Positions 11,430-60,367 of a stretch of 64,000 nucleotides of DNA are shown in pieces. Origin of the DNA: Hericium rajendrae. Lineage: Eukaryota; Basidiomycota; Agaricomycetes; Russulales; Hericiaceae. The position numbers were made by a program, and so were the translations under genes. The number at the start of each line of letters is the position of its first letter. Within the stretch, counting starts at the first letter, position 1. Below the pieces are notes generated by a model that worked only from the letters and a program-made list of their open reading frames with translations, was not told where the DNA came from and ran no database searches. The DNA lies in the NCBI GenBank assembly GCA_033439255.1, contig CM065892.1:682001-746000 (forward strand), given 5' to 3'.

Positions 11430-12788
11430 TTAGAGGTGAAGTGCTCTCAACTGCTGTACGGCTCCTTCGTCCCCGCTCAGCATTTCGTCGTCGGACTCAT
11501 TGCTGTCCATAGATGATTCTGTGGAAGTCCACTCGTCTGCGGAGCCGTCCGTCGTTGGATCGTCCTCGTCCGAATCGCATCCCTCAGGGGCCGGCGTGAA
11601 CCTCCTGCGATACCAGATCGGCTCCAATTCCTGGTCCTCGTCCCCAGATACATCGGAGCCCTCGTATTCGTTGACGATCAAGGCCTCTTGCACCGAGTCT
11701 CCCACAAATGTAACCGCCTCTCGTACGTCGCTGTCAGTGTCGCTGGTGTAGGAGTCTTCGATAGAGTCTTCATCAGTTTCTTCGGCGTCCATGCCCAGGC
11801 GATCACCCGCGGGCCTTGTCACCCAAACACTTACGTTCCGCTTGTCCCCAGAGTGCTCGAGGACTGTTTCTCCCTCGCAGACTGTCTCCCAATCACCGGG
11901 ATCCCCGTCATCCCTGAGCGGAAATAACATCGCCTCCTCCAACAGCCCCTCGATGAACAAGCTCCCATCTGGATCATCTTCGTCAAGAACGATGCGTCTG
12001 CCAAGGCAAATCTTCCACAAGTCGCCTTGCTTCATACCCGGCCCTGAAAAGTCTTCAAATAGCGCGTCATCGGCCCATGCAACGATGCCGTGCTCGTGAG
12101 TAAACCTCAACTGGAATGTCTCGCACATGAGGCGTGAGGCTCCACGCGCAATTAATGCTCTGTACTCGTCGTCTGGACAGTAGTACCCAGGGGCAGACAT
12201 GTGCACCGCCACGTCGAGCAGGGGCGTTGTGCCTCTCGGGACGATCTGACGATCACTTTGCAGCCAGTCGTCGTTTGTGCTCATACTCCCGCGGAGGCGT
12301 CGTTCACGTTCGTCGTCGTCTTTCTACAATCAACGTCAGGATTGTGTCTGACGATGGGGCACAAGCAGAAGGAACAAACTAGCCTTGTCGCAGGCGTGCT
12401 GTAAACCGCACTTCACATTCTGGCAGATCCTTTGTGCAACCTCCCATTGGCACGCGGTGCATCGAAATACGCCGTCCGTTTCATCGAAGAGAGCGGATGG
12501 TAATTCCTCTTCCTCGCTGCTCTCTTCCTCCTTGCCATGCACTGCATAAATGGATTGTTCAAAAGGGTACACACTAATACGTCCTGTTTCAGACCTACTT
12601 TTGTTGTTCTGATCCAAAATTTGATCCCTTATCTCTGCCAGCTCACTCTGCAGCATGTCGATTATCCGGCCTTGCAACCGTAAGAAGATCTGGCAATTCC
12701 TTATGAGTCTCTAGCATCGCGTCATCACGAGCCATCGTACCGTTGGAAGATCGTCACCATTCCTTGATCCAGAAGCTGTACCGGACAT
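11430..12788 (-). CDS. Tandem family member 1: coiled coil, Cys knuckle, conserved domain, acidic tail (unknown)
   Basis: Unrecognised family; the same architecture is repeated in the next two genes. Exon 1 starts at 12788 (MSGTASGSRNGDDLPT) and splices to a predicted coiled coil (RIIDMLQSELAEIRDQILDQ). After an acidic stretch comes a metal-knuckle pattern: RCTACQWEVAQRICQ, then a spacer carrying C-G-L-Q-H, i.e. Cys-x2-Cys-x8-Cys-x4-Cys-x3-His. The long last exon (11430-12284) has the conserved block: PRGTTPLLDV, DEYRALIARGASRLMCETF, GIVAWADDALFEDFSG, GDLWKICLGRRIVLDEDDPD and VWVTRP. It ends in an Asp/Ser-rich tail with EMLSGDE just before the C-terminus. No signal peptide or membrane segment; zinc binding and a nuclear or cytosolic scaffold role are inference. 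Compared with members 2 and 3 the knuckle has two extra residues between Cys3 and Cys4. Confidence 0.75.
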
Positions 12789-13137
12789 CGATGTGTGTCC
12801 TTTCTGCGTCAAGACGAAGGAGTGGAAACAAATACGAGGTGAACTCGAGGTCAGTGATGCGCACAGGTCAAACTTTAAGCGTCTCGTCATGGACATATTA
12901 CGGCACGCGTCGCGCGTTACCGTACGTACGTACATCGCGGACACTCCATCCTTCCTCAGACGTTCATTTTAGATAGATGGTGACGGTCACTATGCCAATC
13001 TAGAAAGATGGAGGGATGGATGGTAAGGGAGGGGCTGTCATACTGTCTACCACATTTTACAGACCCCATGTCAGTATTGTCATGACTTTGTTGCCTCCCG
13101 CATGCACTCCACTGACACCTGTCGAAGCGAAAGCTAC
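12789..13137. other. Spacer between tandem genes 1 and 2
   Basis: About 350 bp with a CGTACGTACGTAC run near 12922 and no plausible exon. It must contain the promoter of member 1 and the 3' end of member 2. The 14-bp motif shared upstream of members 2 and 3 is absent here. Confidence 0.5.
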
Positions 13138-14454
13138 CTAGCCGGCGCGGAGTGCCCTCAACTGCGGAACGGCCTGTTCATCCCCACTCATCACTTCGTC
13201 TTCATCAAAATCGCTGTCTGCAGAGGACTCCGACGCCGACCATTCGTCTGCCGAGCCATCCGTGGTCTGGGCGCCATCGTAATTTCCGTCGGAGGTTATG
13301 CTGTACTTCTTGCGATACCACTGGAAAGGCTCCGACTGCGGGTTCACGTCCACGTCCACATCCACAGCCATACCTTCATCCTCGTATTCGTCGATGACCG
13401 CGTCCGTCATGTTGGCATCGTTGACTGTGGCTGTTCCCCCTTCGTCCAAGTAGTCGCTGATGTACTCATCGCTAGCGCTGTCATCTTTACCCGTCCGTAC
13501 CTCGAAGGGCCTTGTAACCCATACTCCTTCCTTCTCAAGGACTGTCTCCCAAGTACCAAGTCGCCAGGTCCTCCTGATGGGAAACAGCATCGCTTCCTCT
13601 AACAGTCCCTCGATGAATCCACTCCCGTCCGGATCGTCTTCATCAAGGATAATGCGTCGCCCGAGGCATATCTTCCAGTAATCGCCGGGCTTCATGCGAG
13701 GGCCCGAGAACTCGTCAAACAGTGTATCATCGGCCCATGCGATAATGCCCTTCGCATGGGAAAATCGCAATTTGAACGTCTCGCACATCAGGCGCGAGGC
13801 ACCGCGCGCAAGCAGTGCTTCGTACTCATCCCTCGGGCAGTATCCCCTTGGGGCATCCATGTACGCCCTCACGTTAAGAAGAGGCGTGGTGCCCCTCGGG
13901 GCAAGTTGACGATCGCTGTCGAGCAATTCATTGTCCGTGCTGATGCTTCCATGAATATGTCTCTCCAATCCATCTACTTCCTCCTAGAGCAAAAGTCAGA
14001 TTATATGCCGTGGGGCGCATGTAGGAGGGACAGACCGTTTCACAGTCATGCGCCAGACCGCAGTTTTGACAGAATCCATCCGCAACCTCCCAGGCACATT
14101 CCGTGCATCTCAAAACGTCTGGGTCCTCTTCGTCCAAAATAGCAGATGGCAGATCGTTCTTGTCATCGCTGCTGTCAACTTCCTCATCGTCAGTCACTGC
14201 GAAATGATCAGCGGCAAATCAGCGGAGAAGAGAGCGAACGACGATGAATGTATATTCACAAGCGACTTTATTCTGACACAGAACCTGATTCCTCAATTGG
14301 GTCACTTGGTTTTGTAGTTCGACAATTAACTGGCTTTGTTGCAAGAGCGTCTGATAGAATTTTATGAGTCGCTCTAGCTTCGCAGCAGCATGGACCACCG
14401 TACCTGTGTAACATTGTTCCCGTCGGATGGCCCCGCGATTGCATTGGGAGGCAT
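13138..14454 (-). CDS. Tandem family member 2 (unknown)
   Basis: Same plan and same intron positions as its neighbours. Exon 1 (14454) reads MPPNAIAGPSDGNNVTQ; exon 2 after a TATCAG acceptor is a heptad-rich coiled coil (SQLIVELQNQVTQLRNQVL). Exon 3 carries an acidic run and the knuckle RCTECAWEVADGFCQNCGL followed by AHDC (Cys-x2-Cys-x8-Cys-x2-Cys-x3-His). The last exon (13138 to about 13985) starts EEVDGLERHIHGSISTD and holds the conserved domain: LAPRGTTPLLNV, DEYEALLARGASRLMCETF, GIIAWADDTLFDEFSG, GDYWKICLGRRIILDEDDPD, VWVTRPF. The tail is acidic and ends DFDEDEVMSGDEQAV. The exon 2 to exon 3 junction is the least certain join. Function unknown. Confidence 0.75.
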
Positions 14455-14672
14455 AGCTGTGTTCCTTGGTGAAGAGACTGGATGTGAGGCCAGGTGCTCA
14501 GCAAGTTGACACGCATGGCACGGTCGCGTAACGACCGGCCCTAAATAGCACGCGACGCGCGCGTTCCCGCCTGTCGCTGCTCGAAGTCGTTGTTATTTCA
14601 ACTCTCCGCTTTACCAGACATCATTAGACAAGTTACAGGAACAGCTGTTGTCTTCGTAGAGTTATCTATCTT
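14455..14672. other. Spacer between tandem genes 2 and 3
   Basis: Short promoter region of member 2 containing the shared 14-bp motif. The rest is featureless to me. Confidence 0.5.
14532..14545 (-). promoter_or_regulatory. Promoter word shared by tandem members 2 and 3 (copy upstream of member 2)
   Basis: CGACCGGCCCTAAA on the plus strand, i.e. TTTAGGGCCGGTCG in the direction of transcription, 78 bp before the ATG of member 2. The identical 14-mer lies 123 bp before the ATG of member 3. It could be a regulatory site or just sequence retained from the duplication. Confidence 0.4.
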
Positions 14673-16022
14673 CTATTCTACGGTACTTTGTATTACCTCC
14701 TCATCGCCACTCAACATCTCCGAGTCTGAATCACTGTCAACAGATCGCTCCGGATCTGACTGATCTTCTTCTGAATCCTCATCGTTTTTCGTATCTTCGT
14801 CTTCCGAATCGTCAGAACTCTCGTATTCGTTGCTGAACAGGGATTCTTCTGGTTGATCTTCTATGCTTGGGTTACTGCTATCCGCAGATTCAGCCTTTGG
14901 TGGCACGTCTTGGTCCATAGGCTCTGCTTTAGGTACTTTATCTTCACCCGCGGGCTCTGCTTTGGGCACGTTACTATCATGCGTGGCTCCCGCCCGGCCT
15001 CTTTTAGCATTATCAATACCGTGAGCACCCGCTTCAGCATCATGCATCGGCCTCGTAACCCATACTCCCTCGCTCTCCGGAACGGTCTCCCAGCCATTGG
15101 GGCTGAAGCCAACCATGTGAAACGTCGCTTCGTCCAAGAGCGTCTCTATGAACCAACTTCCATCCAAGTCATCCTCTTCAAGAACGATGAACCGTCCCAG
15201 ACAGATCTTCCACCGGTCGCCCGGCTTCATGCGCGCTCCGGAGTAGTCCTCGAATATCGCCTCGTCGGCCCAGGCGACGATGCCCGTCTCGCGCTCGAAC
15301 TCCAGCTGGAATGTCTCACACATGGCAGACGTGGCGCCCCGCGCCAAGAGAGCGCGATATTCGTCTGCACGATAGTTCCACCCGACAGGGACTTGATCCC
15401 ATGTCACGTCGAGGAGTGGCGTCGTCCCGCGGGGCGCGAGTTGACGGTCGCCGTGGACCGCTTCGTTTTCCGTGGACATGCTTCCGTTGACCAATCGCTG
15501 CATTTGTTCCTCCTCTTCCTAGACGTGCAAGTCAGTTACCTCGGACTTGAGATCATCGTTCGAGATATTAACCTCGTCGTATGCATGCCTCAAATGGCAG
15601 CTCTGGCAAAAACCTTCGACGACTTCCCAGGCGCAGCGCGTGCAGCGCAGGGTAGCAAGACCCTGCATATAATCTGGATGACCATACCATGGATCACCCT
15701 CGCGAATTGCTTCCGGAAGCCTGCGATTCTTGCTTTTATCATTGCTCAGGTCCTCTTGGAGTCCTGATTAGCACAAACTTTATCAAAGCACGATGTTTCA
15801 GACATCTTGCTCACTGTTATTGATCTTAGCCTGGGTTCTCAAAGCTTCGACTTCATCATTTAACTCAACGTTTTCCTTTCTCAACGTAGCGATGATCTAC
15901 CGGAACCAAATGATTATTTCGGGAGTTCAATGGATCCCACACATGGTATGCTCTTTAGGACGCACCTGTATCATGTCTTCCTTGCTAATCAGCTCATAGT
16001 CTTGGTTGGCAGCCTCCGCCAT
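14673..16022 (-). CDS. Tandem family member 3 (unknown)
   Basis: The clearest gene model of the three. Exon 1 from 16022 reads MAEAANQDYELISKEDMIQ; exon 2 is a coiled coil (IIATLRKENVELNDEVEAL); exon 3 begins RLQEDLSNDKSKNRRLPEAI and ends with the knuckle RCTRCAWEVVEGFCQSCHL plus RHAYDE. A 57-bp intron (GTTAAT..TAG) leads into the last exon, which carries LAPRGTTPLLDV, DEYRALLARGATSAMCETF, GIVAWADEAIFEDYSG, GDRWKICLGRFIVLEEDDLD and VWVTRP. Its tail differs from the others: repeated KAEP motifs (VPKAEPAGE, VPKAEPMDQ, PPKAESAD), then acidic sequence and the same EMLSGDE signature. The tail is therefore evolving faster than the core. The knuckle keeps four Cys and one His but lacks the Cys that follows in members 1 and 2. 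Function unknown. Confidence 0.8.
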
Positions 16023-16380
16023 CCTTGGGCATAACTTGGAGACGACGTCGGATGCAAATTGGCGGTCGCAGTCCGGTCGAGCTCGAGCTGGAACGCGTCG
16101 CGCTAAATTATCGAAGCACGATCCTTTTTCGGGTGGGCGCGTATCGACCGGCCCTAAACTGCATCTTAGTCACGTGCGACGCGTTTCTGAGGGGAGCGGC
16201 GGCCCGGCGAGCAGAGGCAAGCGGCTGGCAGCCAGACGATCCTATGTCTCTGTCATGGTCCCTTCCTTCTATACGTCACACTAAAACCAAGACTGCTATA
16301 GACACTTCTTTTCATGTACAGACTGATACATTTTGTTAAGCTACATCGTAGTCATTTGTCCGCTTCAGTTCTTGTCCTCC
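16023..16380. other. Promoter region of tandem member 3 and 3' flank of P5C dehydrogenase
   Basis: Includes the second copy of the 14-bp shared motif; otherwise no gene or repeat that I recognise. Confidence 0.5.
16145..16158 (-). promoter_or_regulatory. Promoter word shared by tandem members 2 and 3 (copy upstream of member 3)
   Basis: Identical 14-mer CGACCGGCCCTAAA on the plus strand, 123 bp upstream of the member 3 ATG; see the entry at 14532. Confidence 0.4.
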
Positions 16381-34194: not shown

Positions 34195-36066
34195 TTACTC
34201 TTCAGCATGATAGCTAGGCAGGACATGCATTACATGGTCGATGTACCAGTACCGCGGCCTTTCCTCCTTACCCTTCTTTCCACTAACCACAGCTTCTTCC
34301 AGTCGGGAAATCTCGACCCAATACGCACCAATGCCCATCCCGACGCGCAACACGTCAATCACCTCGGACGACACCAGCACCGTGATATCGTCCCTGAACG
34401 GGTTGTGCGGCTTGACTGCATCTTCCCCAACAGGCGCCTCATCCGTCTCATCCAGCACCACCGCCCCGCGACTCGTGCCCGGAATGACCGGCCTCGTAAT
34501 ATCGGACTTATCGTTCCTGTCCCACTCCCACCCGACCAACGGCGCCAACACCACGCGCCCGAACCGCCGCTCTAGCTCCTCCTCCACCGCCTCAGCCCCC
34601 GCCGCCGCCCTGCGCGGCGCCATCGGTGCATGCAGACTCGCGATGCGGCGCGTCGACCACTCGACGACGCCCGGCGCGTGCGTGAGCGGGAGCGCGGTCG
34701 GCCCGAGCAGCGGCAGCAGCGCGGGCAGCGGGCGGTCCCAGAAGCCCGGCGGCGCGCCCTCCGCGCCCGGCTCGCGCGCCCAGCCCCAGTCTTCCGCGTC
34801 CTCGGCAGCCCAGTCGCCCTCCGCCGCGGGGATGCTGGTGCTGCTGTCGATGACGAACGGGTCGCCCGCGGCGAGCGCCGCCTTGACCGCCTCATCGAGG
34901 CGCGCGGCCTCCGCCTCCTCCACGCGCTTCTGCCGCGCCGTCTCGGGCGAGTCGACGGTCTCGCCCCAGTCGGGCGCGGCCCGCATGCTGCCCCAGCACT
35001 GCGCGCACGCGGCGCTGAGCGCGTCGGGCACGGCGCGCCCGATGCGGTGGATGAGCGGGAGCTCGGCGCGCGCGGTCTCGACGAGCGCGAGCGCGCGGCG
35101 CAGCGGCGCGTCGTGCTCTGGCTCGGGGAGCGCGTAGCTGCGCAGGAGGAAGCGCAGGAAGAACGCGACGAGCGTGGGCATCGCGACGCAGCGCTGCTCG
35201 GACCTGCGCCGCGGCGTCGTTAGCACCTAGCACACATGCCTGCGTGAAGGGACACACCAGATGAGCCCGCGGTCGCGGAAGTAGTGCGAGAAGAGGATGC
35301 GCATGCTCGTCTCGGGGTCGTTGAGGAAGTCCGCCATGCGCGCGTCCTTGTCCTCGTACCGCAGCTGCAGCTTCTCGTCCCACGTCAGGCCGTCCTCTGC
35401 CTCCGCGGTCTCGGCCGCCTCGTACGCGGAGCCCATGGGCATGAACGGCCGGCGGCGGCGGTACTGCACCTTGCCGTCCGCGCGGAGCGGCGCCGGCGGG
35501 CGCCGCTCGCGCTCGCGCACTTGCATGTGCGGCCGGGGCGCTGGGGCGGCGTCGGCGTCGTCCGAGTCGTCGTCGTCTGAGATGGGCGCCTGTTTTCGGC
35601 GGTTGAGGATCGGCTTGTGTTGCAGGCCGACGTAGTTCCGGAACTGGCGCGGGATGGAAGTGACGCGTTGGTTAGATGTCGGGCTGGTCGGTGGCGTGTA
35701 AGCATGTAATGATGGACGCACCTGTTCCCAGAGATCCTGCAGCAGTCTGCCTGTCGGGTCGGGCGGCCACGGACGCCCGCCTCTGAAGTCAGCACCGGCT
35801 TGGAAGACGCGATCTACGCGCGAAGCATTCCTAGCAATTACGGATAATGAGCATGAGCGCCTGCATCGCGGATAGACAGAAATCGCGCACGGATCGTAGT
35901 ACCCTCGCCTGACGGCCTCGAACTCCTCCCACTCCTCCCACCATGTCTTCGTTTTCGCGTCGCCGACGCTAATTGATGGCTTCTTCTGGCCCGCAGAAGC
36001 AGGCCAGAGCGGGAACCGAAGCAGGCCTTCGGGATTAGCATTCTGTGGGCTGGTCAAAGCCGGCAT
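34195..36066 (-). CDS. Unknown protein, paralogue A of the 42-44 kb gene
   Basis: I do not recognise the family. From the ATG at 36066 (MPALTSPQNANPEGLLRFPL) the protein runs through WWEEWEEFEAVRRGYYDP, a conserved RVFQAGADFRGGRPWP block, FRNYVGLQHKP, an acidic/basic linker, then LTWDEKLQLRYEDKDARMADF and SHYFRDRGLIW. After an intron it continues with SEQRCVAMPTLVAFFLRFLL, an Ala/Glu-rich middle, LPALLPLLGPTALPLTHAPG, VVEWSTRRI, SDITRPVIPGTSRGAVVLDE and ends RYWYIDHVMHVLPSYHAEE. Every block recurs in paralogue B with the same intron positions. No signal peptide or clear membrane span. The last exon is very GC-rich, so the opposite strand shows long spurious frames. Product about 560 residues. 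Confidence 0.75.
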
Positions 36067-41994: not shown

Positions 41995-44137
41995 ATGTCG
42001 TCCAAGCCGACTGCAGAAAACACCACTCCCGAGTACATGCTCCGATTTCCGCCCTGGCCTGCACCTCCTCCAGGCAAGAAGATAATCCCATTCAAGGAAT
42101 TCAAGCCGGTGGGCATCCGTATCTCGATGGATGGCGATGATGACGCTCCGGAGTTCGATGGCCTTGGCATCCCGACCGTCCCACTGCTCGTGAAGCACGG
42201 AACCGACGATCTGGAGAAGAAGCGCAGAAAGAAAAAGGGCGGCGCGTCCCAGGTCACTGTTGCGGATGGTAAACGGAACATGTGGTGGGACGATTGGGAG
42301 GAGCTCGAGGATGTGCGGAAGAAATTCTATGATCCGTACGTGATTCCCGTCCATCTGAAGCACTTGCACTCACGCTCCTTTTCTATCCTTTGCCAGGCAT
42401 ACGTCGCCCATTGATCGCGTGTTCCAGGCGGGCGCCGACTTTAGGGGCGGCCGTCCGTGGCCGTCAGGCCAACTAGGCATGAGGCTGAATGAACAGTGGG
42501 ATCAGGTGCGTGCATCCGAATCAAATACATCCCAGCAGGCCGACAACTCATCTACTCGCCACCTTCACGATCCACCAGTTCCGCAATTACGTGGGCTTGT
42601 CACCTCAGGCCGTCGTCAGTAAGAAGAAGCAACAGGTATCGGACGACGAAGACTCGGACGGCGGCGAGGGCGAGGCTGCGCCCGAAACCCAGCCAAACCT
42701 CGAAGCGAGTGAGACGCCTCATCCTGCTGCAGATGAGCAGCAGCGAAAACGTAAGCGACGTCACTCTATGCCTGTGGGCTCCGCCTACGAAGAAACAGAG
42801 ACCGCCGACGCGGAGGAGGGCCTGACATGGGACGAGAAACTTCAAATGCACTACGAGGACAAGGACATCAACATGCTGAAATTCCTGAACGATCCCGAAA
42901 TGAACATGCGCATCTTCTTCTCGCACTACTTCCGCGACCGCGGCCTCATCTGGTAAACCTCCTGCTGTGTATCCAAGCAAGGGCGCTCATGACGCCTCTG
43001 CACAGGTCCGAGCAGCGCTGCCTGCACATCCCGACCCTCATCTGCTTCTTCCTGCGCTACCTCCTGCGCAGCCGCGTCCTCCCCGAGCACGAAAAGCCCC
43101 TGCTCCGCGCGCTCGACGTCGCCGAGACCGCGCGCACCGAGCTCCCGCTGACGCATACAATGGGGCGCGCCGTGCCCGACGCGTTCAGCGACGCGTGCAA
43201 GCAGTGCTGGGGCAGCCGGCAGCCCGCGATCGACTGGGGCTTCTGCGTCCCCGCCGAGCCGCCCGACGTCGAGCGCATCGAGTCGCCCGAGACGAAGCGA
43301 CAGAAGACGGACGCGGACGCGGGCGTGGACACCGCGCAGCTCGACGCGGCGGTCAAGACCGCCCTCGCCACGGGCGGCACGTCCGACCCGTTCGTGATCG
43401 ACAGCACCATCGTCCCCGCCGACGCGGCGGGCGAGGGCTGGGCGAATGCTGGCGCATGGCCGGACGCGCAGGGCGCAGAGGGCGGCTGGGGCATAGAGCC
43501 GCCACAGGACGCAGAGGAGGAGCAGGCGAACTGGGGCACGCAGGACTGGGCGCGCGAGCCGGGCACGGAGGCGCCGCCGAGCGTGTGGGACAGCCCGCTG
43601 CCGGCGCTGCTCCCGCTGCTCGGGCCGACCGCGCTCCCGCTCACGCACGAGCCGGGCGTCGTCGAGTGGTCGACGCGCCGCATCGTGAGCGTGCACGCGC
43701 CGCTGTCGCCGCGCAAGCCCGCGGGGGGGCCGGAGGCGGTCGAGGAGGCGCTGGAGCGGCGCATGGGGCGCATGGTGCTCGCGCCGTGGCTGGGGTGGGA
43801 CAAGCATGAGAAGTCGGACATCACGCGGCCCGTGATTCCGAGCACGAGCTGCGGGGCGGTGGTGCTGGATGAGAGCGGGACGGAGCCGGAGGCGCCTGTC
43901 GCGAAGGGCGCGCTCAAGCCGCACAATCCGTTTAAGGATCATATTACGGTGTTGGTGATGCCGGAGGTGGTCGACGTGTTGCGTGTTGGGATGGGCATTG
44001 GTGCGTATTGGGTTGAAATTGTGCGGCAGGAAGGGGCTGCGGTTAGCGGGAAGAAGGGCAAGAAGAAAGAGAGGCCGCGGTACTGGTATATCGACCAGGT
44101 GATGCACATTTTGCCTAGCTATCACGCCGAAGAGTGA
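41995..44137 (+). CDS. Unknown protein, paralogue B of the 34-36 kb gene
   Basis: Starts MSSKPTAENTTPEYMLRFPP at 41995. Introns: 42336-42396 (joining FYDP to HTSPIDRV), one ending before FRNYVGL near 42570, and one near 42955-43005 after SHYFRDRGLIW. Blocks shared with paralogue A: RVFQAGADFRGGRPWPSG, GLTWDEKLQMHYEDKD, SEQRCLHIPTLICFFLRYLL, LPALLPLLGPTALPLTHEPG, VVEWSTRRI, SDITRPVIPSTSCGAVVLDE, GIGAYWVEI, and the end RYWYIDQVMHILPSYHAEE. The middle of the last exon is longer than in A, with Trp-rich repeats (GWANAGAW, GGWGIEPP, ANWGTQDWA). Basic run KKRRKKKGG near residue 80 could be a nuclear signal. Product about 650 residues. Family unknown to me; intron positions and both ends are conserved between copies, so it is under selection. 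Confidence 0.8.
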
Positions 44138-58875: not shown

Positions 58876-59805
58876 CTATATGTCCTCGCCGCCCACAACA
58901 TCTGCGCCCGGCAACAACCACCGGAACGTCACGCTGAGCCTGACGTCGCGCTCGATCCATTCTTCCCCATCCACGCTGTCTTCGTCATCCCTGACCGAAT
59001 CGCCCAAGCGCTTCTCGATCCCATGTGTCCACTGGTATCGTGCCTCATCCGATAGAACTAAAACACTTCTTTCCGGAAGATACAGGTCCCATCGCCTCCT
59101 CTGACCATCCTTGACCAATCCAGGGCCCAAGTTCTGAGCGGCCATGGGTGCCATGACACGCGTCTCTTCGCATTCCCTGCGGAAGTTCATGACGCAACCG
59201 CTTCCCAAGCTGACGCCTATGATTCCGTCCCCAAACCGGCGGAGAAGGTCGACGTGTGGGGAAATGCCCTCTCCGGGTCGGTACAAGTTTATGATGGCCT
59301 GCCGCGCCCGTGCTGGCTCCGAGGGTGGAGGAAAGAGAAGACGGTAAGTCGCATCTGGTAAAACAGGTTTCAACACCTTTTCGAGCTGGACAAGGAGCGA
59401 TTGTAAGAATGGTGGTAGGCCGCTGTCGTCCAAGCTACCCAGAACGTGCTGGCCCGCGGAGATGGTGGTAGCGTCTCTGGCTCTACCAAATAGCATAATC
59501 TGATTAACATTCTCGTTCTGAAAATATGCGTCCATAATCGTCTTCAGGACTTCCTCCGCCAGCTCGGCAGGTAATCGCAATTCGGGGTCGAAGAAGAGGC
59601 CGGGGATGGGAGGTGCTTTCCGATATGCAATGATGGCTTCTGAGCTATCTTTATGTCTGAAATTGGATATCTCTTCTGGTCCGCTGTCCGAGACGCCTGG
59701 CATCGCTTCGTCGAAAAGTGAGTTGGGGCTGGTCGGTCCCTCATAGTCCCTGTCGTCTGGTAGTGCCGTACATTCGGTGCAGATGGCGAGCGTGGGTACC
59801 GACAT
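58876..59805 (-). CDS. AlkB-type 2-oxoglutarate/Fe(II) dioxygenase
   Basis: Single-exon protein of 309 residues. The double-stranded beta-helix core has NLYRPGEGISPHVDLLRRFG with the His-x-Asp iron ligands, GVSLGSGCVMNFRRE, SVLVLSDEARYQWTHGIEKR with the distal His, and RDVRLSVTFRWLLPGADVVG with the Arg that binds 2-oxoglutarate plus a second conserved Arg. These fit AlkB homologues that demethylate nucleic acids or proteins by oxidation. The N-terminal 75 residues are poorly conserved and include a Cys pair (CTECTALPDD). Which ALKBH subgroup it belongs to cannot be fixed; the WLLPG end resembles the ALKBH6/8 type of fungal proteins. No targeting signal seen. Confidence 0.85.
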   Translation of the reverse strand: MSVPTLAICTECTALPDDRDYEGPTSPNSLFDEAMPGVSDSGPEEISNFRHKDSSEAIIAYRKAPPIPGLFFDPELRLPAELAEEVLKTIMDAYFQNENVNQIMLFGRARDATTISAGQHVLGSLDDSGLPPFLQSLLVQLEKVLKPVLPDATYRLLFPPPSEPARARQAIINLYRPGEGISPHVDLLRRFGDGIIGVSLGSGCVMNFRRECEETRVMAPMAAQNLGPGLVKDGQRRRWDLYLPERSVLVLSDEARYQWTHGIEKRLGDSVRDDEDSVDGEEWIERDVRLSVTFRWLLPGADVVGGEDI

Positions 59806-60367
59806 TGGCGTCTGGATGACTGCAACAAGCTTAAGGGATCCGAAGTCCTGGCAACTTTGAATTGGTCAAGATATGGAACTCGTGTTGTGTGCAGTGTAGA
59901 TGAAGGTGTAGAGTTGATAGACGCTGTAGCGAGGGTAATGTAGCGCTGATGTCTGCTGGCAAGCTTAGGCTGAAGCAGGAGGCAGCGCCAATCCGAAATT
60001 GGCAGGTATCGTCAGACAGACGATCCTGAGGTACGAAGCGTTGAGTCCTGTCTACTCTGCCTCTGGGAGACTACAGGTATCCAAGAACCGAAGAAAGCCT
60101 CCGCGGCATATTGGCGGTGTAGAACGGAGTCCAAGGAATTGAAGAACACCTGAGCAGCCTTCATTGGGAACTTATCATAGCAATATTGCCATAACATCTC
60201 ATGAGAAATTATCTGATTCCACATGATCGCTTTGCTTCTCAATACAAACCAGGTTCCTCGCAATTGCCACTACGCAAGTTCCCACCACATGGGAAAGGGG
60301 GATAACAATTGAGAGCCATGTACTGTATGCAGAGTACTAACGCTCAATGCCGCCCGGAGCATTATTC
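59806..60367. other. Intergenic, AlkB promoter / 3' flank of the DUF1399 gene
   Basis: No supported gene; a few short frames only. Confidence 0.45.

Follow-up and report, generated by a model that had tools for sequence, protein, structure and literature searches.

Three tandem paralogs joining a Cys/His knuckle to an orphan core in Hericium rajendrae: a candidate family of intracellular adaptors

Three minus-strand genes of four exons each lie in tandem between positions 16022 and 11430 of the window, a stretch of 64,000 nucleotides on contig 15 of the Hericium rajendrae genome (46.8 Mb, 19 contigs). We regard them as three functional paralogs of an orphan, probably lineage-restricted family whose products may be intracellular, non-enzymatic zinc-knuckle adaptors, a reading to which we assign a probability of about one half. 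Its direct results are the anatomy shared by homology, the copy number within the limits of the searches, and the purifying selection acting on the knuckle and the core.

Structure and copy number of the array

The genes were spliced by hand on conserved signals. This confirmed the same-strand array that the initial annotation had placed at 11430..16022, including its four-exon models and homologous cores.

11430..12788, minus strand: member 1 gene; exons 12788-12741, 12689-12599, 12541-12384 and 12323-11430; 396 amino acids; intron 3 GC-AG
13138..14454, minus strand: member 2 gene, spliced model; exons 14454-14404, 14350-14260, 14196-14036 and 13983-13138; 382 amino acids
14673..16022, minus strand: member 3 gene, spliced model; exons 16022-15966, 15896-15815, 15763-15573 and 15518-14673; 391 amino acids

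In all three models the introns measure 51-69 nucleotides and fall at the same places, as had been claimed, with phases 0, 1 and 0 for introns 1-3. Intron 3 of member 1 (12324-12383, minus strand) possesses the GC donor GCTAGT and a GC-AG boundary, compared to GT-AG in both paralogs. The GC donor is required, since splicing from the GT four bases on to the same acceptor breaks the frame. Least certain in the models is the boundary between exons 1 and 2, and knuckle exon and core exon are assigned to one gene as judged from homology and frame. Every member revealed the multi-part order already described for the array: a short N-terminus, a heptad-like segment (described as a coiled coil), an acidic linker, a Cys/His knuckle, the core and an acidic tail.

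The core blocks were delimited by alignments:

11811..12290, minus strand: core of member 1, GSMST to WVTRP, 160 residues
13507..13950, minus strand: core of member 2, 148 residues
15048..15485, minus strand: core of member 3, 146 residues

PRGTTPLL and WKICLGR are unchanged across the three aligned members. The longer motif PRGTTPLLDV, which had been given for the family, does not apply to member 2, where it reads PRGTTPLLN. Over 146-148 codons the cores of members 1 and 2 are 72% identical at the amino acid level, the other pairs 60-62%, and the core of member 3 matched those of the other two with expectation values (E) of 4.6e-45 and 5.9e-43. Because of these values, and because 60-72% identity is retained despite high synonymous difference, the likeness is not due to chance.

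The profile search of the core that had been proposed gave no match to a characterised family, and the family can still be called unrecognised: Pfam returned no match at E <= 5 for the last exons of all three members, NCBIfam and PHROGs returned weak matches alone for the last exon or core (best E 0.049), and the PDB held no match to the core profile at E <= 10. Two PDB matches of single core sequences to ABC-transporter binding proteins (E 0.72 and 0.73) were taken as chance. Stretches with core patterns were picked up in viral contigs (23) and prokaryotic genome contigs (21), none of which was confirmed by tblastn. No paper recognisable as treating the family was found in the literature, a weak negative since sequence letters seldom appear in text. 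Other hypothetical proteins of mushroom-forming fungi may carry the core as well, which would lower the novelty of the family.

The search of the host genome works by exon and scores the best candidates only, and distant copies may be missed. Using three core or knuckle-plus-core protein queries, the three loci of the array were the only copies detected; a single additional stretch scored 16.4 bits and contained four stops. A knuckle query also returned the three loci only, and tblastn of the window gave no fourth copy (next-best stretch E 1.7). The MCETF pattern occurred at nine places in the genome versus three for the backwards pattern, PRGTTP at 17 versus seven, and three of the places belong to the array in each case. 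When the core profile was run over the loci found by motif patterns, no convincing relative beyond the array emerged; the best match (7.7 bits, E 0.037 for this small set) is the stretch with four stops mentioned above, which lies on contig C4. The knuckle pattern was found at 17 places versus three for its backwards control. Two of these are members 2 and 3; member 1, which is without the Gly, was missed. Eight of the other 15 places are near-identical to one another, probably a repeat, and seven are single sites. Six of the 15 were inspected (one of the eight, five of the seven), none of which goes on to C-x2-C-x3-H. A RING-bearing parent gene was considered and rejected; the core did not turn up a fourth time, and the stretches examined 5' of members 1, 2 and 3 are short (349, 218 and 342 bases).

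Selection and history of the paralogs

Uncorrected ratios of nonsynonymous to synonymous differences per site (pN/pS) were determined with bootstrap intervals for four segments in each of the three pairs; saturated pS makes such ratios overstate omega. For pairs 1-2, 1-3 and 2-3, the core yielded 0.26 (0.18-0.36), 0.33 (0.25-0.44) and 0.32 (0.24-0.41), and the knuckle 0.24 (0.11-0.51), 0.29 (0.16-0.49) and 0.30 (0.14-0.56). Values for the tail were 0.64 (0.48-0.87), 0.65 (0.50-0.83) and 0.61 (0.49-0.76), those for the N-terminus 0.47 (0.32-0.68), 0.68 (0.50-0.91) and 0.77 (0.56-1.08). The interval lies below 1 in 11 of the 12 comparisons, the exception being the N-terminus of members 2 and 3. 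Knuckle and core are thus under purifying selection, and the tails and the N-terminus are looser, not diversifying. This pattern of purifying selection indicates that the copies have been kept as working genes, and the looser tails would fit acidic and probably flexible segments on which constraint is relaxed. As the comparison covers three paralogs of a single genome, positive selection that is recent or confined to individual sites is possible. Synonymous difference was high throughout (pS 0.59-0.96 in all segments, 0.67-0.80 in the core). For members 1 and 2, corrected dS (synonymous substitutions per site) was 1.63 for the core and 1.16 for the tail; in eight of the 12 comparisons dS was beyond correction. 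YN00, applied to some comparisons only, gave 0.818/0.885, near 1, for the N-terminus of members 1 and 2.

Core identity is highest between members 1 and 2 (72% versus 60-62%), so that member 3 was probably the first to branch off, an order obtained without a tree. Two introns of members 1 and 2 are still alike beyond shuffles, which speaks against a very ancient split of this pair. Intron 1 (12690-12740 versus 14351-14403, minus strand) scored 22 against a shuffle mean of 4.0, intron 3 scored 14 against 0.8, and none of 500 shuffles did as well in either case. Intron 3 of members 2 and 3 showed a weak excess of likeness (p 0.016); the remaining six of nine intron comparisons were no better than shuffles. 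The likeness between members 1 and 2 may stem from introns that have a function or from gene conversion; for intron 1, a misplaced boundary between exons 1 and 2 may also account for it.

The adaptor reading and its rivals

In the proposed adaptor, subunits would pair through the short heptad-like segment near the N-terminus. The small Cys/His knuckle would carry zinc and contact one partner (a protein, ubiquitin or nucleic acid), and a second partner would be bound by the conserved core. Binding would be tuned by the acidic tail, which would be flexible and open to phosphorylation. The knuckles and, defined by composition, the tails are:

12396..12461, minus strand: knuckle of member 1, C-x2-C-x8-C-x4-C-x3-H by alignment, with a sub-threshold zf-C3H1 match
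14048..14107, minus strand: knuckle of member 2, C-x2-C-x8-C-x2-C-x3-H by alignment, AlphaFold2 block means 86-88
15585..15644, minus strand: knuckle of member 3, C-x2-C-x8-C-x2-C-x3-H by alignment
11433..11810, minus strand: acidic tail of member 1, D+E 32%
13141..13506, minus strand: acidic tail of member 2, D+E 27%
14676..15047, minus strand: acidic tail of member 3, D+E 32%, KAEP repeats

Invariant among the three knuckles are R-C-T-x-C-x-W-E-V, C-Q and C-x-L-x-H. The alignment bears out the spacing originally described, with its invariant WEV and two extra residues in member 1. An AlphaFold2 model of the member 2 knuckle exon, built from three sequences, reached a mean pLDDT (predicted local distance difference test) of 76.5, with block means of 86-88 for residues 21-50, and contains three short strands; short beta strands are therefore predicted for the knuckle with fair confidence. 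It is probably a metal site, with weak matches to several families (discussed below). The proteins have masses of 43-44 kDa and full-length isoelectric points of 4.1-4.3, values which, together with tails that are 27-32% acidic, point to proteins that stay inside the cell and have flexible tails. In the spliced models the KAEP repeats are confined to member 3, as had been noted. The tail end MLSGDE is replaced by VMSGDE in member 2. Members 1 and 2 have a C-terminal tail motif in common.

Several observations weigh against the adaptor reading. The heptad signal of exon 2 was weak compared to shuffles (p 0.054, 0.074 and 0.143), CK2-type sites were in clear excess in member 1 only (p 0.024, 0.115 and 0.072), and a look for nuclear signals yielded short basic clusters only, none of them a clear signal. 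The structure prediction suggested for the core gave no usable fold: the AlphaFold2 model had a pLDDT of 34.6, probably because three sequences only were available, and a catalytic role is possible. We infer that the knuckle binds zinc, that subunits pair, that the proteins are intracellular adaptors and that the family is restricted to a lineage; the adaptor mechanism is derived from the layout. Relatives of the core were sought in the host genome, the viral and prokaryotic contigs, Pfam, NCBIfam, PHROGs and the PDB. A further proposal can be put forward only tentatively, namely that the PRGTTP...WKICLGR...WVTRP core represents a novel domain which folds in a way of its own and is confined to one lineage of fungi, and that the adaptors linking it to a zinc knuckle serve a regulatory role peculiar to fungi.

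The initial annotation had considered diversifying pressure, and recognition or self/non-self genes with a stable core and tails under positive selection would indeed match a local array whose tails and linkers vary in length and sequence. One of the 12 pN/pS intervals, that of the N-terminus of members 2 and 3, extends above 1. However, the point values are below 1 in all 12 comparisons, with 0.61-0.65 for the tails (upper bounds 0.76-0.87) and 0.47-0.77 for the N-terminus (upper bounds 0.68-1.08). The contrast between conserved core and variable tails thus persists in so far as the tails are looser than core and knuckle, while diversifying pressure finds no support. The C-terminal motif shared by two tails, the presence of only three copies in the genome searches and the absence of a recognition-type domain from the Pfam results for the three last exons and the knuckle-exon reading frames also make such genes quite improbable. 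A domesticated mobile-element fragment might be suspected on account of the orphan core and of zinc knuckles, which are common in mobile-element proteins. Since Pfam gave no match and PHROGs weak ones only, no further genomic copies of the core were seen and the introns are conserved, this origin is very unlikely.

The two other rivals depend on the identity of the knuckle, for which the proposed profile search placed member 1 near zf-C3H1, all Pfam scores being below cut-off. An RNA-related CCCH-type protein, in which the knuckle would be a diverged zf-C3H1 finger, may act with RNA or in nuclear RNA decay; the zf-C3H1 family is linked to RNA decay. The knuckle of member 1 scored 18.2 bits against PF10650 (E 0.0021; 19.9 when the whole genome was searched), ranks second among the three PF10650 places in the host genome and has a C-x-aromatic-E-aliphatic pattern in common with the best of them. 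On the other hand, the score is below the curated cut-off of 20.9, and members 2 and 3, without the two residues giving C-x4-C, did not match at E <= 10. The zf-C3H1 spacing, C-x7/8-C-x4-C-x3-H, fits member 1 alone, members 2 and 3 having C-x8-C-x2-C-x3-H. Three of 14 prokaryotic-type control genomes also revealed matches below the cut-off, so such scores arise by chance, and an RNA-related protein is rather unlikely. An NZF-like knuckle binding ubiquitin, which would make the proteins adaptors of the ubiquitin pathway, is similarly doubtful. Foldseek with the knuckle model returned 52 matches at E <= 10; the best had E 2.5, and none reached E <= 0.001. Zinc-binding proteins, judged by title and recall, are frequent among the 50 matches listed, all of which are insignificant (E > 1). 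They include the RanBP2/NZF fingers of Nup153, TRABID, MDM2 and MDM4. Target-normalised template modelling (TM) scores of TRABID NZF1 and the Nup153 and MDM4 RanBP-type fingers were 0.39-0.67, and those of Nup153 and TRABID superimposed on the model with a root-mean-square deviation of 1.5-1.8 over 24-26 columns, yet with E > 1. But Nop10, eIF2 gamma, TFIIB, RNF216 and Pirh2 are in the same list, as are PHD, BIR and LIM domains and CHY proteins, likewise insignificant. RanBP2/NZF fingers have the spacing W-x-C-x2-4-C-x3-N-x6-C-x2-C, from which the array knuckles depart by a loop of 8 and by having no W ahead of the first Cys. The zinc ribbon profile PF13240 gave 13.8 bits for the member 2 knuckle (cut-off 25, Pfam E 0.052).

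Genomic surroundings and relation to known systems

The array is located downstream of a same-strand gene of the aldehyde dehydrogenase family (Aldedh). Four long antisense open reading frames (ORFs) across it (330, 191, 179 and 136 amino acids) had no Pfam match at E <= 0.01, and scans of the window with Rfam and for tRNAs (bacterial settings) were both empty. Upstream of two members a stretch is shared:

14533..14545, minus strand: TTTAGGGCCGGTC, 79-91 bases upstream of the member 2 start (shared stretch, genome count)
16146..16158, minus strand: TTTAGGGCCGGTC, 124-136 bases upstream of the member 3 start (shared stretch, window and genome counts)

This element sits in a 24-base match of 92% identity between the two upstream regions. 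It was not found upstream of member 1, and the whole window contains two copies. In the genome it occurs at 17 places, members 2 and 3 included, versus one for the backwards pattern. A TTGTAG stretch lies on the left in a few of them, and no long common flank was seen. At 14 of the 17 places an ORF that starts with ATG and spans 60 codons or more follows within 900 bases downstream (mechanical ORFs, no control). The element may be a general promoter element of the host, not private to the array.

Elsewhere in the window, two ORFs resembling Arb1, an Argonaute siRNA chaperone subunit, are arranged in opposite orientation about 7.5 kb apart (42755-44134, plus strand; 34198-35226, minus strand) and are 63% identical over 389 columns. 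A 2OG-Fe(II) oxygenase ORF of the PF13532 family is situated at 58879-59865 (minus strand). The fungal peroxidase extension PF11895 was detected at eight places in the genome, all above cut-off and six of them within C14:971330-991420, and in none of the 14 control genomes. Together with the Arb1 matches and the short introns of the array genes, features typical of such fungi, this extension suggests a white-rot agaricomycete.

As a constrained domain without a profile in the Pfam copy searched, the core could merit a family entry of its own and is a candidate for structure determination, and three paralogs that have kept order and introns form a small genetic system in a filamentous fungus. 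Beyond this candidacy, the array probably represents just one orphan family among the many that are restricted to a lineage. With zf-C3H1 (PF10650), the knuckle of member 1 has in common C-x-aromatic-E-aliphatic followed by C-x4-C-x3-H; the array knuckles differ by an additional CxxC partner before it, and no relation of the core was found. Zinc ribbons and RanBP2/NZF fingers (PF13240; PDB 3gj3, 5af6, 1pft, 2ey4) resemble the knuckles in two Cys pairs and a small predicted beta structure, but no sequence or structure score was significant, and the array knuckle has a loop of 8 and an extra His. For the family as a whole, a comparison is provided by the conserved unannotated orthogroups of Agaricomycetes, 172 of which are counted among the orthogroups confined to species with complex multicellularity (PMC8893723). 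The array family need not be one of them; what it shares with these orthogroups is conservation, the lack of a known domain and occurrence in mushroom-forming fungi.

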